A DNA stretch of 64,000 nucleotides from Lachnoclostridium sp. (GTDB lineage Bacteria; Bacillota; Clostridia; Lachnospirales; Lachnospiraceae): NCBI GenBank assembly GCA_021770065.1, contig JAETRR010000005.1:1-64000 (forward strand). Direction: 5' to 3'. Below the pieces are notes generated by a model. The model was not told the origin of the DNA. It worked only from the letters and a program-made list of their open reading frames with translations, and ran no database searches. Below are positions 16,829 through 59,758 of the stretch, one piece after another. Made by a program: the position numbers and the translations under genes. Numbering within the stretch: position 1 is the first letter of the stretch; every line of letters starts with the position of its first letter.

Positions 16829-19608
<2,780 letters not shown>

Positions 19609-19626
19609 TTTCTTTCCCCCTATTCT

Positions 19627-19743
19627 AAGTCGCTGCGCGACAGCACTAAAGGGTAAAGCCGCTTCGACACACCGGTATTGAGAGAAACTTTCATTCGAAA
19701 GGCACTCATGAAAGTTTCTCTCGTGCGCCTTCCCGGCTTTACC
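19627..19743. repeat. Family-2 structured intergenic repeat
   Basis: About 117 bp, nearly identical to 47353-47470. It contains a small hairpin GTCGCTGCGCGAC, an outer stem GGTAAAGCCG (19652-19661)/CGGCTTTACC (19734-19743) and an inner 15-bp stem (19680-19694/19708-19722). Compared with the other copy both stems differ at matched positions, keeping pairing. It sits between EIIA and EIIC, ending just before the EIIC ribosome binding site. Confidence 0.88.
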
Positions 19744-21491: not shown

Positions 21492-21695
21492 GGGGAAGCC
21501 GCAAAATAAGCCTCCCGGCTGTTCCGATATCAAGTGTCCGGCTGTTCACGCACACACTGTCTGATATGGGCGAACATTACACCACTCCCAGTTACCCAAA
21601 ACAAAAAACAATGTTCGTCCAGAGCAGACAGTGTGTGCGTGAACCGTCCGAACACGGATATGGAACAGCCGGGAGGCTTATTTTGCGGCTTCCCC
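21492..21695. repeat. Very long inverted repeat (about 87-bp arms, 31-bp loop)
   Basis: Left arm 21492-21578 and right arm 21610-21695 are near-complementary, starting GGGGAAGCCGCAAAATAAGC and ending GAACATT, with a few mismatches in the middle. The loop (579-609) is A/C-rich. It fills most of the 324-bp gap between the AraC gene and tmcAL, both on the plus strand. No protein-like frame is present and no transposase is nearby. It could be a strong transcription barrier, a mobile hairpin or the source of a structured RNA. Confidence 0.9.
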
Positions 21696-25179: not shown

Positions 25180-25449
25180 CTAGATGCGGTGCATCCGGTC
25201 AAAAATTTCCTCATGCTGGCACTTAATCACCACGCCGATCTCCTCTCCGATCTGTTCCAGCTCCAGGGAAAGATTTTCAAAGGACTTCACCTTTCCCGTA
25301 TCAACCACCATCATCATATTAAAAAATCCCTGTACAATCGTCTGGGAAATGTCCAGAATATTCACTCCGTTCTGCGCCAGGTATGTGCACACCTTCGCAA
25401 TAATTCCCACAGTGTCCTTTCCTACTACAGTAATAATCGTTCTTTTCAT
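25180..25449 (-). CDS. ACT domain protein (UPF0237)
   Basis: 89-residue protein consisting of one ACT fold ([20 protein letters not shown]). ACT domains usually bind amino acids and regulate partners. It precedes the PFL family gene and is probably its regulatory subunit. The start follows TAGGAGGATC, and that ribosome binding site is joined to the end of a family-1 repeat. Confidence 0.88.
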
Positions 25450-25464
25450 AATGATCCTCCTATT

Positions 25465-25571
25465 CCAGTTCCGTAATATCCCTCCCAGTACACTTTAGCC
25501 TAAATCAATTTCCAGTCACAGATACATGTGCCTGTAAATTGATTTGTGCACTGTGAGGGATATTACTGTTT
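25465..25571. repeat. Family-1 palindromic leader repeat, copy A
   Basis: Bounded by CCAGTTCCG and CTGTTTT. Outer stem TAATATCCCTC (25474-25484) pairs with GAGGGATATTA (25555-25565); the inner stem is AAATCAATTTCCAG against CTGTAAATTGATTT. The minus-strand end CGGAACTGGAA touches the ACT gene's ribosome binding site. Nearly identical to copy B at 47245. Confidence 0.9.
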
Positions 25572-25572
25572 T

Positions 25573-25650
25573 AAGTCGCTGCGCGACGGCACTAAAGGGT
25601 AAAGTCGCTTCGACACACCTTAGCCTAAATCAATTTACAGCCGCAGGAAC
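25573..25650. repeat. Truncated family-2 repeat joined to a half family-1 copy
   Basis: 25573-25618 matches the first 45 bp of family 2 (AAGTCGCTGCGCGAC onward). It then switches at CACACC to TTAGCCTAAATCAATTTACAG, which is the inner part of family 1. The block reaches almost to the metallo-hydrolase stop codon. Confidence 0.75.
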
Positions 25651-39149: not shown

Positions 39150-39401
39150 TTAAGATGCCTCCCTCTCTTCCAATTCATTGTTCTGTTCTTTTAAGCTTAA
39201 AAGAACATCCTGCGCAGAAAGCTCGTTCTCCTGCATGTAGATATAGAGCTCCTGCATTTCCTCGTCGCGTTTTGCTTTTAACAGCTCTTCTCTTTCCTTC
39301 TGAAGCACGGAAACTGCTTCCGTGTGCTTTCTAAGCTTTTCCTCGTTTTCTGCCAGCAGTTCTTCGTAGGTCTTTCTGGCTCTTGTTCTCGGCCTTGCCA
39401 T
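39150..39401 (-). CDS. Small charged coiled-coil protein, function unknown
   Basis: 83-residue protein. A basic N-terminus (MARPRTRARKTYEEL) is followed by a Glu/Lys-rich heptad pattern (about 18-55) and an acidic C-terminus with LSAQDVLLSLKEQ. It has a good ribosome binding site (TAGGAGGACAAACAC) behind a family-1 repeat. The basic head and coiled coil could suit a nucleic-acid-associated protein, but this is a guess. No family was recognised. Confidence 0.65.
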   Translation of the reverse strand: MARPRTRARKTYEELLAENEEKLRKHTEAVSVLQKEREELLKAKRDEEMQELYIYMQENELSAQDVLLSLKEQNNELEEREAS

Positions 39402-39420: not shown

Positions 39421-39525
39421 CAGTTCCGCAGTATCCCTCTCTGTGCATCTTTCTGAGAAGAATTTCCGACCGCACATTCATGCGCTCGTAAATCCTTCTA
39501 TGCACCTCGGGGATACTGCTGTTTT
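39421..39525. repeat. Family-1 palindromic leader repeat, copy E
   Basis: Bounded by CAGTTCCG and CTGTTTT. The outer stem GCAGTATCC (39428-39436) pairs with GGATACTGC (39511-39519) and differs from copies A-C on both sides together; the inner stem is GAAGAATTTCCGA against TCGTAAATCCTTC. It is followed immediately by a tiny second unit, CAGTTCCGCAGTTTTGCGG (39526-39544). Confidence 0.87.
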
Positions 39526-39584
39526 CAGTTCCGCAGTTTTGCGGTTATGCTACTAGGAGTATATGCCTTTTCTGGATAATTTAT

Positions 39585-46542: not shown

Positions 46543-47232
46543 CTAACTATAATTACGTTCTCCAAAAATCCCCGTTCCAACGCGGATCATGGTAGCGCCT
46601 TCCTCAATCGCGACCTCATAGTCTCCCGTCATACCCATGGACAGGACACTCATAGATACATTATCAATGCTTTTCCTTTTTATGTCAACATTTAATTTCT
46701 TTAAATTGGCAAAATGTATCCTGTTTTCCTCCGGATCCTCCACAAATGGAGCAATTGTCATCAGTCCCTGAATCGAAACAGCCGGAAGCTCTGCGATTTT
46801 TCGGATAAGATCTTCTGTCTCCTCCGGCCTCACTCCGAATTTGCTCTCTTCTCCTGCCACATTGACCTCTATAAGTACAGGCACGGTTATCTGTCTTTTT
46901 ACTCCTTCCTCACTGATAGCCCTGGCAAGCCGGAGAGAGTCCACCGAATGAATGAGACAGGCCTTATCTATTACGTATTTTACCTTATTGCGCTGCAGGT
47001 GGCCGATAAGATGCCAGCGAATATCTTTCGGAAGCTGTTCGTATTTCTCACACAGCTCCTGTACCTTATTTTCGCCAAAATCTCTGATCCCTCCCGGAAG
47101 AAGCTCCTCAATCATGGAAACAGGCTTTGTCTTGCTCACTGCAATCAATGTTACTTCTTCCCTCTTCCGCCCGGAACGCCCGCAGGCGGCACAGATTCTC
47201 TTTTCCACCTCTGCCAGATTTTCAACTACCAT
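46543..47232 (-). CDS. PLP homeostasis protein, YggS family
   Basis: 229-residue pyridoxal-phosphate-binding protein of the YggS/PLPBP family, involved in PLP balance rather than catalysis. The PLP lysine is Lys34 in LIAVSKTKP. HLIGHLQRNK, NVAGEESKFG and LSMGMTGDYEVAIEEGATMIRVG are present. It stands just upstream of sepF, the usual position in Gram-positives. The ribosome binding site (TGGAGGAC) is fused to family-1 repeat copy B. Confidence 0.93.
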   Translation of the reverse strand: MVVENLAEVEKRICAACGRSGRKREEVTLIAVSKTKPVSMIEELLPGGIRDFGENKVQELCEKYEQLPKDIRWHLIGHLQRNKVKYVIDKACLIHSVDSLRLARAISEEGVKRQITVPVLIEVNVAGEESKFGVRPEETEDLIRKIAELPAVSIQGLMTIAPFVEDPEENRIHFANLKKLNVDIKRKSIDNVSMSVLSMGMTGDYEVAIEEGATMIRVGTGIFGERNYS

Positions 47233-47244
47233 ATGTCCTCCATT

Positions 47245-47351
47245 CCAGTTCCGTAATATCCCTCCCAGTACACTTTAGCCTAAATCAATTTCCAGTCACA
47301 GTTGCATGTGCCTGTAAATTGATTTGTGCACTGTGAGGGATATTACTGTTT
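47245..47351. repeat. Family-1 palindromic leader repeat, copy B
   Basis: Nearly identical to copy A: CCAGTTCCG, outer stem TAATATCCCTC/GAGGGATATTA, inner stem around AAATCAATTTCC/GTAAATTGATTT, closing CTG. The differences from copy A are mainly in the terminal loop. It lies between the HlyD-like gene and yggS. Confidence 0.9.
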
Positions 47352-47352
47352 A

Positions 47353-47470
47353 AAGTCGCTGCGCGACAGCACTAAAGGGTAAAGTCGCTTCGACACACCG
47401 GTATTGAGAGGAACTTTCATTCGAAAAAGCACTCATGAAAGTTCCTCTCGTGCGCCTCCTCGACTTTACC
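47353..47470. repeat. Family-2 structured intergenic repeat, full copy
   Basis: Contains hairpin GTCGCTGCGCGAC, outer stem GGTAAAGTCG (47378-47387)/CGACTTTACC (47461-47470) and inner stem 47406-47420/47435-47449. Relative to 19627 the outer stem carries a T-for-C with matching A-for-G, and the inner stem a matched G-for-A/C-for-T change. It is directly joined to family-1 copy B. Confidence 0.88.
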
Positions 47471-47477
47471 AGCACCG

Positions 47478-47494
47478 TAGCCTAAATCAATTTA
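47478..47494. repeat. Family-1 inner fragment overlapping a stop codon
   Basis: TAGCCTAAATCAATTTA matches the inner left arm of family 1. The HlyD-like gene's TAA stop (minus strand, 47492-47494) lies inside it. Confidence 0.6.
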
Positions 47495-48958
47495 ATCGTA
47501 AATTACTTCATCCTCGTCCACCGTATCTGCATTCAGAACGATGTGATCGTAAACAGAGAGGCCGTAGCTGGTTCCCTCCTTCACGATACAGTACTCCTCG
47601 TTTTCATACAGAATCTGTATCTGGCGGAATACGGTGTAACCTTTGTTGATATTGTAAACGCCTGTCAGCTTCGCCGTCTGCCCTACCTGGTAGAATTCTG
47701 CGGAATCTGTCCTAATCAGCAGATCCCCGTTCTGCAGCAGCTTCTCCGAAGTGCTGAAATTCTCTTCCTTCGGATCCACATAGGCGTACTCTTCATCCTG
47801 ATAATAAATGGTGCAGTTGACAAACTCAGCCTGGCTGCTTCCGTCCTCCCCTATAGTCTGCTTCATCACACCCATATTATTGCTGGAGCCTGAGGTTGTC
47901 ACATAATCCTTATCAATCACAAAAAAATCTTTTTCCGTCACAGCCGTCCTGGGGATCTTAAGTCCCGTAGTCTCATCACGAAGTACCTCAAAGGTCAGAA
48001 AGCGCTCATCCGCATAGCGAATCATGGAATTCACAAATTCCAGCACACCGTAGGCCTTTCCCTCACGGTACTCCACCGTTACCGACGGCCAGAGTTCCTC
48101 TTTGTCCTTATCCATCCGGATTTCAATATAGGTAGTATTCTGAATCACTGTGCCGTCTTCCGCCGTCTTCTGGTTCTCCTTAATCTTGTCCAGCAGATAG
48201 GTCTCCATCTCCTCATCAAGAGGGAACACCAGCTTCCATGTCTCCTCTGTAACCAGCTTATACACCGGCTCTCCCTGTCCCACAAGCTCTTCTGTACGGA
48301 GATTCGTTCTCTCATAAGCTTCCTCTTCAAACCAGGAACTGCTTAAATTTTCCAGAGAAGCATTTTCAAAACCGTCCAGGTAGTATTCCACTACCCCGGA
48401 TGCCCCTGCATTGTAGCGGGCAAATGTACTTCCTCCGCTTTCCGCAGCGCTGTCCAGCTGGGAAATCATATTCTGATTCATCAAATCCAGGATTGCCGCA
48501 TCTATACCCGTCTTAAAATTATATACTTCCCCAAAATTCATGTCGGAAATACTGCTCATATAAGCGGCTATCTCGCTGCGGAGCTGGCTGTAATCTTCCT
48601 CGCTTAAACTCATCTCACCGGCATTGTCCTTCATAAGCTGAGCCATACGGCCGCTCTCATCCACAGTATACACGGCAGAGTTTATGGAAACCTTCTCGCC
48701 CTCCCTGGCATAATAGCTGATATATCCCGGCTTTTCCGACTGAAAAACCTGCTCCGTGCGAAGAGCAATACCCGTATAATGATAATCCGCCGCCAGGTTG
48801 CCGGCAATCACTTCATATCCGGATATATGTGAGGAATTAAAAAACGTATAAACACAGACAATCAGATAGACCGCTATAAACCCAAAAAATACAACGCCGA
48901 TATTCATGGGGCGCCGGTATTTGATAACCTTTTTATTCTTTTTCCTGGAACCTGCCAC
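47492..48958 (-). CDS. HlyD-like membrane-anchored protein of the division cluster
   Basis: 488-residue protein with a short basic cytoplasmic head (KKNKKVIKYRRPMNIG), one membrane segment (about 18-40) and a long extracellular region with helical middle and beta-rich end, like HlyD/efflux adaptor subunits. No ABC exporter is adjacent. Its regular position before yggS-sepF in clostridia suggests a link to division or envelope assembly rather than export. The GTG start follows GAAGGAG. The family assignment is moderate. Confidence 0.7.
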   Translation of the reverse strand: MAGSRKKNKKVIKYRRPMNIGVVFFGFIAVYLIVCVYTFFNSSHISGYEVIAGNLAADYHYTGIALRTEQVFQSEKPGYISYYAREGEKVSINSAVYTVDESGRMAQLMKDNAGEMSLSEEDYSQLRSEIAAYMSSISDMNFGEVYNFKTGIDAAILDLMNQNMISQLDSAAESGGSTFARYNAGASGVVEYYLDGFENASLENLSSSWFEEEAYERTNLRTEELVGQGEPVYKLVTEETWKLVFPLDEEMETYLLDKIKENQKTAEDGTVIQNTTYIEIRMDKDKEELWPSVTVEYREGKAYGVLEFVNSMIRYADERFLTFEVLRDETTGLKIPRTAVTEKDFFVIDKDYVTTSGSSNNMGVMKQTIGEDGSSQAEFVNCTIYYQDEEYAYVDPKEENFSTSEKLLQNGDLLIRTDSAEFYQVGQTAKLTGVYNINKGYTVFRQIQILYENEEYCIVKEGTSYGLSVYDHIVLNADTVDEDEVIYD

Positions 48959-55880: not shown

Positions 55881-56447
55881 CTACGGCTCCTCTATATTAT
55901 TATCTGTCTGCCCTGTCATTCCCGATGCAGTATAGTAATCCCTTATAGATTCTCCTCCCAGGCGGTCCAGAAGCCCGTTAAACTTCTGAATGGGCCGGTA
56001 CAAAAGAATCGTCAGTGCCACTGTGTAAATCAGCTCCGGCAGAATAATATGGATAAAATAATAGCCGAACTCAAACTTACTGCGCATCAGAAACATAAAA
56101 AAGTAAACACTTAAGCCATAGACCAGCTCGCTTAAAGCTATCCAGACCATGGGCAGCTTGATATCCTCATCATAAAAAACCATATGAAACAGACCGCTCC
56201 CATACCCCAGAAACATATACAAAAGGGCATAAAACCCCAGCAGGCTTCCAAAGAAAATATCCAGCAGCAGGCCGCAGAAAAATCCGATTACCAGCCCTTC
56301 CCTCTCCCCTCTCATAAATCCCAGGGATGAAGTCACAATCAGAAGAAGGTTGGGTGAAATGGATGCCAGGGCCAGCGCTTTAAACACGGTACATTGAAGA
56401 ATAAAGCATACCATGATCAAAAGTGCAGTTACCAGCTTTTGTTTCAT
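55881..56447 (-). CDS. mreD: Rod shape-determining protein MreD
   Basis: 188-residue membrane protein with about six segments linking MreC to the elongation machinery. ATG at 56447 (MKQKLVTALLIM) is the family-like start; the frame continues upstream into the family-1 repeat. It is separated from mreC by that repeat, copy D, although the two genes are usually adjacent. Confidence 0.88.
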   Translation of the reverse strand: MKQKLVTALLIMVCFILQCTVFKALALASISPNLLLIVTSSLGFMRGEREGLVIGFFCGLLLDIFFGSLLGFYALLYMFLGYGSGLFHMVFYDEDIKLPMVWIALSELVYGLSVYFFMFLMRSKFEFGYYFIHIILPELIYTVALTILLYRPIQKFNGLLDRLGGESIRDYYTASGMTGQTDNNIEEP

Positions 56448-56462
56448 ATAATAGATCCCATT

Positions 56463-56567
56463 CCAGTTCCGCACATATCAATCTGTACCCTTTAACCTAG
56501 ATGTATTTCCGGCCGCAGAAGCATCCGTCCGTAAATCCATCTGGGTACTGTTTGATATGTGCTGTTT
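56463..56567. repeat. Family-1 palindromic leader repeat, copy D, inside the mre operon
   Basis: Bounded by CCAGTTCCG and CTGTTTT. The outer stem GCACATATCAA (56471-56481) pairs with TTGATATGTGC (56552-56562), unlike the stem of copies A-C yet fully paired. GTACCC/GGGTAC continues the stem. It lies between mreC and mreD, so it is transcribed within the operon. Confidence 0.88.
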
Positions 56568-56569
56568 TC

Positions 56570-56600
56570 CAGTTCCGCACTGTTTGAGCAGTGCTGTTTT
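56570..56600. repeat. Mini family-1 unit in tandem with copy D
   Basis: CAGTTCCG, then a 6-bp stem GCACTG-TTTGAG-CAGTGC, then CTG and five T. It has the same boundaries as family 1 with a minimal stem. Confidence 0.75.
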
Positions 56601-59333: not shown

Positions 59334-59585
59334 TTAAAGCTTTCGATAAATAATGATTGCAAGCACAACACCGATAATGCTGGCAATGGAAATCTGAATT
59401 GTCAGGCCGAAGGTCAGCACCAGCAGACCCAGATCCAGGACAACGGGACTTTCCAGCCCGAAACTTTGTCCATAATTCAGCCAGCTTAAGCCTGATACAT
59501 TCGCTGTCAGCATCCCGATAAATCCTCCCAGGACAATCCCTGACAGCAGCATAATCAGGAGCACCCAGCCATTTTTCGACTTCAT
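59334..59585 (-). CDS. Small membrane protein, DUF4321 family
   Basis: 83-residue protein with two membrane segments (about 7-28 and 52-80) and a short loop (YGQSFGLESPVVLDLG). The family is known from clostridia at this position before radC/mreB and has no established function. The start follows GGAGGGGTT. It is the first gene of the cell-shape operon. Confidence 0.82.
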   Translation of the reverse strand: MKSKNGWVLLIMLLSGIVLGGFIGMLTANVSGLSWLNYGQSFGLESPVVLDLGLLVLTFGLTIQISIASIIGVVLAIIIYRKL

Positions 59586-59652
59586 AACCCCTCCGTCTTC
59601 TGCATCTCATCCGGGATTTTCCCGGTTTTTGTCTAGATAATTTTCTTCCATT

Positions 59653-59758
59653 CCAGTTCCGTAATATTCCCGCCGTACACCTTAGCCTAAATCAATTTCC
59701 AGCCGCTTGGGACTGTGCCTGTAAATTGATTTGTGCACGGTGGGAATATTACTGCTGG
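59653..59758. repeat. Family-1 palindromic leader repeat, copy C, in the cell-shape operon leader
   Basis: Bounded by CCAGTTCCG and CTG. The outer stem GTAATATTCCC pairs with GGGAATATTAC and continues CCGTACAC/GTGCACGG; the inner stem matches copies A and B. It lies between the operon promoter near 59800 and the DUF4321 gene, so it would form the mRNA leader. Confidence 0.9.

Follow-up and report, generated by a model that had tools for sequence, protein, structure and literature searches.

A family of long hairpins lying directly before Shine-Dalgarno sequences in a Lachnoclostridium genome

Why should one and the same long hairpin stand immediately before the ribosome binding sites of unrelated genes? 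The question is raised by a locus at position 25,465 in a 64,000-nucleotide stretch of Lachnoclostridium sp. DNA (assembly GCA_021770065.1, contig JAETRR010000005.1, positions 1 to 64,000; hereafter the window). An initial annotation of the window described five full copies of a hairpin repeat and proposed that they could be leader RNA regulators, mRNA stabilisers or mobile hairpins that target translation start regions. Of these three proposals the last is the best supported, the copies being dispersed, of one orientation and flush with Shine-Dalgarno (SD) sequences, with empty sites known from relatives. The best explanation, which we consider probable, is a non-autonomous family of mobile hairpins, similar to repetitive extragenic palindromes (REPs), that is targeted to SD sequences.

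Copies in the window and in the genome

The five copies were found where they had been placed, with a length close to 103 nt and the common ends CAG...CGGAACTG. Scores refer to the covariance model R1, introduced below.

25466-25568, minus strand: full copy (126.3 bits); AGGAGG and then the ATG of an ACT-domain gene (25183-25449) lie downstream
25456-25461, minus strand: SD core of the host (AGGAGG), abutted by the end of the element
39421-39524, minus strand: diverged full copy with a changed outer stem (93.4 bits); TAAATAGGAGG and an ATG follow (open reading frame 39153-39401)
47246-47348, minus strand: full copy (124.6 bits); next come GAATGGAGG and the start codon ATG of a gene of the YggS family (46546-47232)
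56464-56565, minus strand: diverged full copy (93.9 bits); a weak SD and then the ATG of an open reading frame ending at 55881 follow
59654-59755, minus strand: the sole window copy away from a gene start (101.2 bits); GAATGGAAGA follows; clean empty site in five relatives

Read in gene sense, each copy takes the form CAG-[hairpin]-CGGAACTG and folds into a single long hairpin. This hairpin is bulged on one side, by AGGYTAA in most copies, and its inner stem contains a mismatch that is conserved. RNA fold energies of the copies with their flanks range from -49.7 to -66.6 kcal/mol. As the annotation had remarked, the outer stem differs between window copies and is changed on both sides. The further claim that a gene starts right after every copy holds for 25466, 39421 and 47246, each of which is followed by a good SD. 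It holds in weaker form for 56464, where the SD is poor (GAATGGGATC) and the ATG lies 16 nt past the element, and it fails for 59654, which is followed by GGAAGA and no gene start, the next SD and ATG occurring some 70 nt further on (ATG at 59585).

Searches of the organism's own genome (G000; a 4.14 Mb draft in 145 contigs, 92% complete) revealed a large family. BLAST with the 25465 copy gave 79 matches, with 45 full or near-full sense copies at 87-100% identity, and some copies form exact 107-bp head-to-tail arrays in which the repeat unit, about 107 bp, is CAG-[bulged hairpin]-CGGAACTGGAA(T). The model R1, built on 26 BLAST loci and the five window copies, which it recovers by construction, yielded at least 145 matches at E <= 1; at least 109 of them are in sense orientation and score 72 bits or more, and the remainder are mostly antisense echoes of the same hairpins. 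A second model, R2, made from diverged copies, yielded at least 125 matches at E <= 0.001. Since 150 candidates were scored per model search, these copy numbers are lower bounds.

Position relative to the Shine-Dalgarno sequence

Copies lie in sense orientation, flush with the 5' side of a purine-rich, SD-type core. This was assessed from the flanks of the 109 strong copies, 16 of which lead into a further copy and 93 of which are non-tandem. Of the latter, 88 passed a loose test that asked for an SD-like core downstream and then a start codon opening a frame of 40 codons or more; among control positions the test was passed by 564 of 5179 downstream and 100 of 1404 upstream ones (7-11%), and among 108 antisense flanks by none. 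The SD core begins 4 nt past the final CTG in 67 of the 88 copies and 5 nt past it in 13, and the commonest start of the flank, seen in 37 of 93, is GAATAGGAGG. Two of the five exceptions are the window copies 56464 and 59654. In the other three a 3' stub and then an SD (C94:47736), a further copy (C102:20175), or an unrelated repeat, here called repeat B, followed by an SD and a gene (C119:20029) come next.

The upstream context was examined for 91 arrays (of 92, one being too short) by a longest-frame method and no gene caller. Sixty-four arrays follow a co-directional stop codon, 39 of them within 60 nt; 23 have an antisense frame upstream, and in four cases the upstream frame is open up to the element. 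In two of these four the element's own CAG-TAA closes the frame, and because the copy thereby closes the upstream gene, it is the SD, not the intergenic gap, that seems to be the target. A promoter module was rejected, given the 64 of 91 arrays after a co-directional stop codon, as was an intrinsic terminator, since the hairpin ends in GGAACUGGAAU with no U-run and precedes genes.

A similar arrangement is seen in relatives. Copies were detected by R1 in nine of 61 genomes (eight of 16 of the same genus, own genome included, plus one from another genus), the best 65 candidates being scored per genome, and by R2 in eight of 397 genomes of the family, or eight of 334 genera, under strict filters with the best 10 candidates scored per genome, so that weak carriers may have been missed. 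Of 50 loci fetched from relatives by model, some of them overlapping and 11 judged by eye after the script misread or could not read them, 38 lie directly at an SD and start codon, 10 lead into a further copy, one has an SD about 20 nt on and one is at a contig edge. The annotation had looked to a covariance-model search of the genome and of related Lachnospiraceae to settle whether positions and orientations are random: it returned many copies, covarying pairs and a single orientation to start codons, and no such randomness.

The exact tail CGGAACTGGAATAGGAGG occurs in at least 107 stretches of named genomes, the titles of the best 80 being Lachnospiraceae, Clostridia, Blautia, Acetatifactor, [Clostridium] symbiosum, unnamed bacteria and one archaeal record; the archaeal match (L218) has no such hairpin. 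Many of the listed matches are presumably mouse-gut isolates or metagenome-assembled genomes. The exact tail matched no viral contig, and plasmid and phage records gave no distant match; carriage by phage or plasmid was rejected accordingly.

Dispersed bacterial repeats usually persist where harm is small. Here about 100 copies occupy a highly sensitive spot of a gene, directly before the SD, leaving the SD and spacer undisturbed, for example at era, prfA and glyS. In the literature searched, from which subscription journals were mostly absent, we found no report of SD-docked repeats.

Hairpin structure and the genes downstream

The covariation that the initial annotation had read as a sign of selection on structure is borne out on a larger scale. 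The alignment comprised 62 diverged copies, namely 58 of 94 matches plus four window copies, with antisense echoes and some sense matches (mostly tandem siblings or weaker) left out. Among its 32 pairs, in rows found with a model (R1) that leans to its own structure, 88.6% of cells are paired compared with 70.8% in shuffles, pairing being conserved beyond chance. Double changes occur in 29 of the 32 pairs, in 390 cells as against 135 in shuffles, and structures with slid partners bring pairing down to 32-48%. The 58 loci were fetched by their tail, so that tail invariance among them arises from selection of the set. The tail played no part in choosing the 109 own copies, of which 102 retain the tail GGA; a second GGA is retained in 73 of 93. 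By cell counts, G-T against A-C is 86 to 29 in own copies, where loops are biased the opposite way, and 144 to 50 in A2, which would point to folding of the sense strand, but the same comparison made by rare events gave 21 against 12 (p = 0.16) and 18 against 17 and bears out no clear preference.

Conservation of this kind is also consistent with a cis-acting leader RNA, the hairpin and GGAACUGGAAU tail being kept for control of translation or of mRNA life, most plausibly through docking of a global RNA-binding protein like CsrA at GGA cores beside the SD, with the spread of the element partly selected. Besides the covariation, the permanent position of the element in the sense leader, the retention of both GGA motifs and the co-occurrence of CsrA with carriers all favour such a role. 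An apt comparison is glgC of Escherichia coli, where the binding sites of CsrA are the SD itself and a hairpin closely preceding it (PMC7652899); the two cases share a GGA at the SD or adjoining it, with a hairpin a short way 5'. In the present element, however, the tail GGA lies outside the hairpin loop and the tail does not fit the consensus RUACARGGAUGU from in vitro selection (SELEX). The putative targets are moreover copies of one dispersed sequence, not independent sites.

The co-occurrence itself is a lead, not a result. CsrA is present in 14 of 15 carriers (the missing one, G284, is 77% complete and has two matches) and in one of eight same-genus non-carriers; in a draw from the family it is present in 210 of 397 genomes, in seven of eight carriers against 203 of 389 others (one-sided p = 0.048). 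Both comparisons are uncorrected for ancestry, and the protein is common in the family, which further detracts from CsrA docking. As a separate observation, the PF02599 score of CsrA is only about 70-75 bits in carriers G000, G002, G004-G007, G012, G013, G028, G319 and G409, and 87-95 in G212, G223, G310 and many non-carriers, indicating a diverged CsrA in some lineages.

The genes downstream also tell against such a role. Ten were profiled, namely era, ftsY, prfA, a lon-type protease, glyS, yajC, ftsH, ung, nifU and pyrF; 200-residue pieces were used for eight of them, so that ftsY, prfA, lon, glyS and ftsH fell below whole-protein cut-offs. Several are essential in other bacteria. Neither these ten nor the full list of loci with an SD and start codon share a common theme, and since the downstream genes are unrelated, a single-ligand regulator is disfavoured. 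Like riboswitch-type leader RNAs, the element has a conserved, covarying structure upstream of genes; it differs in the unrelated genes, in the amplification at species level and in the lack of an Rfam match, since Rfam covariance models gave nothing in the window above the gathering score except one tRNA. A known RNA or riboswitch was consequently rejected. With unrelated genes downstream and recent amplification of the copies, we regard selection as a leader RNA as unlikely to explain the distribution.

Occupied and empty sites, stubs and possible mobilisers

The preferred reading, a mobile hairpin targeted to SD sequences, draws on orthologous sites in relatives that have no copy, on the patchy distribution of carriers, on head-to-tail stacking and on the hairpin kept by compensatory changes. 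At the 25466 site, compared in 15 same-genus relatives, the element is lacking from the eight non-carriers and from G004, where (A)AGGAGG or CAGGAGG stands at the end of a gap of roughly 5-110 nt. A 3' stub alone is present in G002, repeat B in G005, G007 and G012, a degenerate copy (34.6 bits) in G013 and a gap of about 90 nt with no clear element in G006. The 39421 site is empty in G013 (AAAGC|AGGAGGACAAACATATGG), while G002, G005, G007 and G012 have a copy there (AAT|AGGAGG) with the same spacer and gene. At 59654, sequences from G002, G005, G007, G012 and G013 align with the window except for the approximately 104 bp of the element, and no duplication is seen. Empty orthologous sites keep the host SD and spacer. 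Within the own genome, which contributes 109 of 152 copies compared, the nearest copy is another own copy in 105 of 109 cases.

We infer from these sites that a trans-acting enzyme would recognise the folded single strand through the bulged stem and the conserved CGGAACTG flank and would join the folded element next to AGGAGG; viewed on the other strand, insertion would fall just 3' of CCTCCT, in a manner resembling IS200/IS605 or REP logic. Landing would be tolerated since it leaves both the SD and the spacer of the host whole. Once landed, the element would sit as a hairpin in the leaders, or in the intergenic stretches, of about 90 transcription units; it may later decay to, or arise as, 3' stubs and short hairpins.

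Known mobile systems offer partial parallels. The REP/REPIN/BIME repeats mobilised by TnpA-REP (RAYT) are likewise short, dispersed, intergenic bulged palindromes with a one-sided conserved flank, high copy number and tandem clusters; PMC8266576 describes group 2 REPs with the bulged palindrome, one-sided flank, high copy number, tandem copies and confinement to one strand that are seen here. The irregular zone of the stem is conserved too, the one-sided bulge and inner mismatch being kept. Yet the element has CAG / CGGAACTG at its foot in aligned copies and no GTAG-type tag, measures about 103 nt and not 20-50, forms head-to-tail arrays and not inverted pairs, and lies in a single orientation flush with SDs with no linked transposase found. 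An ordinary REP/REPIN system whose RAYT has been missed in draft genomes therefore seems to us quite improbable. Non-autonomous IS200/IS605-type elements, too, have ends that fold as single strands and are inserted next to a short, fixed target, here AGGAGG at the 3' edge, with no target duplication (site 59654), whereas no autonomous relative with the ends of this element was found. For a miniature inverted-repeat transposable element moved by a DDE transposase, a duplication was lacking at the one clean empty site, the autonomous partner not having been searched for.

Stubs of the element bear on another route. The pattern GGAACTKNAATNGGAG occurs 73 times in the own genome (reversed control, 0). 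Of 25 junctions read that have no strong R1 copy, one (C87:20637) is a diverged full copy; the others, judged by eye, end exactly at the SD on the 3' side, their 5' edges lying at about 7 to about 80 nt, many near the hairpin base, and some are short hairpins that keep the CAG. At C119:9650-10150 (L384) a micro-array of the 20-bp unit CAGCTATACGGAACTGGAAA immediately precedes an SD; it represents two or more stacked copies of an ultra-short form of the element. Such 3'-anchored, 5'-truncated copies might be produced by RNA-templated spread, in which the AGGAGG of a leader transcript pairs with CCTCCT at a nicked site and the element is then copied in by a reverse transcriptase. But part of the asymmetry stems from the search itself, whose pattern was anchored at the 3' end, and a similar picture would result from deletions forced to spare the SD. 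Reverse transcriptase (PF00078) is, in addition, without a match in four of 15 carriers (G000, that is the own genome, G006, G028 and G212), as it is in four of eight same-genus non-carriers, a result that also speaks against a target-primed retroelement of the long interspersed nuclear element type, within the limits of incomplete drafts. We consider RNA-templated spread very improbable.

Several findings weigh against an SD-targeted mobile hairpin as well. Only fossil insertions were observed, and no transposition. The 59654 copy shows that a core can be used without being the SD of any gene. For relatives' copies the nearest copy comes from the same genome in only 23 of 43 cases, weak support for species-specific sets outside the own genome. 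Some copies may be vertical, although at the 39421 site vertical inheritance is disfavoured: the copies of relatives there are 61-64% identical to the own copy, itself diverged, which is below their median identity to all own copies (69-81%). As to a mobiliser, the Y1 transposase domain (PF01797) is absent from four of nine carriers (G004, G006, G007 and G028), and 19 Y1 loci fetched contain no convincing copy or matching ends (best R2 E = 0.07), which counts equally against a REP/REPIN system; the gaps for reverse transcriptase belong here too. The carriers wanting either domain are known from drafts of 83-97% completeness, and repeated genes are lost in assembly; because of this the missing genes lower, and do not kill, either idea.

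If SD targeting is real, it represents a new principle of insertion, one that attaches a structured leader to ribosome-binding sites, and if the hairpin acts in mRNA, a gene set has been assembled by a mobile element; both readings are testable in culturable gut Lachnospiraceae. The fullest combination, a class of mobile elements homing to SDs, perhaps via its own leader transcript, and making a shared translational leader of about 100 unrelated genes, possibly under one RNA-binding regulator such as CsrA, is offered tentatively, as a doubtful though conceivable case.

Further features of the window accompany the family:

39526-39544, minus strand: short hairpin just upstream of the 39421 copy with the same GGAACTG tail (by eye; it folds)
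56569-56596, minus strand: short hairpin (CAGCACTG..CAGTGCGGAACTGG) upstream of the 56464 copy (by eye; it folds)
about 19580-19700, about 25572-25625 and about 47352-47500, minus strand: repeat B (also at L073/L164)

The hairpin upstream of 56464 also has, by eye, the GGAACTG tail, and an upstream stub of the element could pair with the 5' arm as a candidate switch (again by eye). Repeat B, a composite repeat of unrelated sequence that starts AGTCCAGCTAAG and ends GTCGCGCAGCGACTTAAAT, likewise docks directly before AGGAGG-type SDs, as in AGAATAGGGGG at about 19615 and in G005, G007 and G012. Thirty of the 109 own family copies have repeat B immediately upstream, and in one case it follows a copy. 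We count a second repeat docking at the same place in favour of the SD-docking reading.

Three minor observations remain. At about 59600-59655, the empty 59654 site of relatives is followed by a conserved ...AAAATTATGTAA-like start-stop (ATG-TAA) leader stretch about 70 nt before the gene, lost in the own genome. An IS200-type Y1 transposase gene with an internal TAG lies at about 1340-1860 of L031 (G000:C140), where an upstream CCTCCTAT could pair with the locus's own AATAGGAGG. Finally, window positions 21492-21695 hold a nested inverted repeat in which 34-nt arms, 100% complementary and 136 nt apart, surround 42-nt arms that are 86% complementary.
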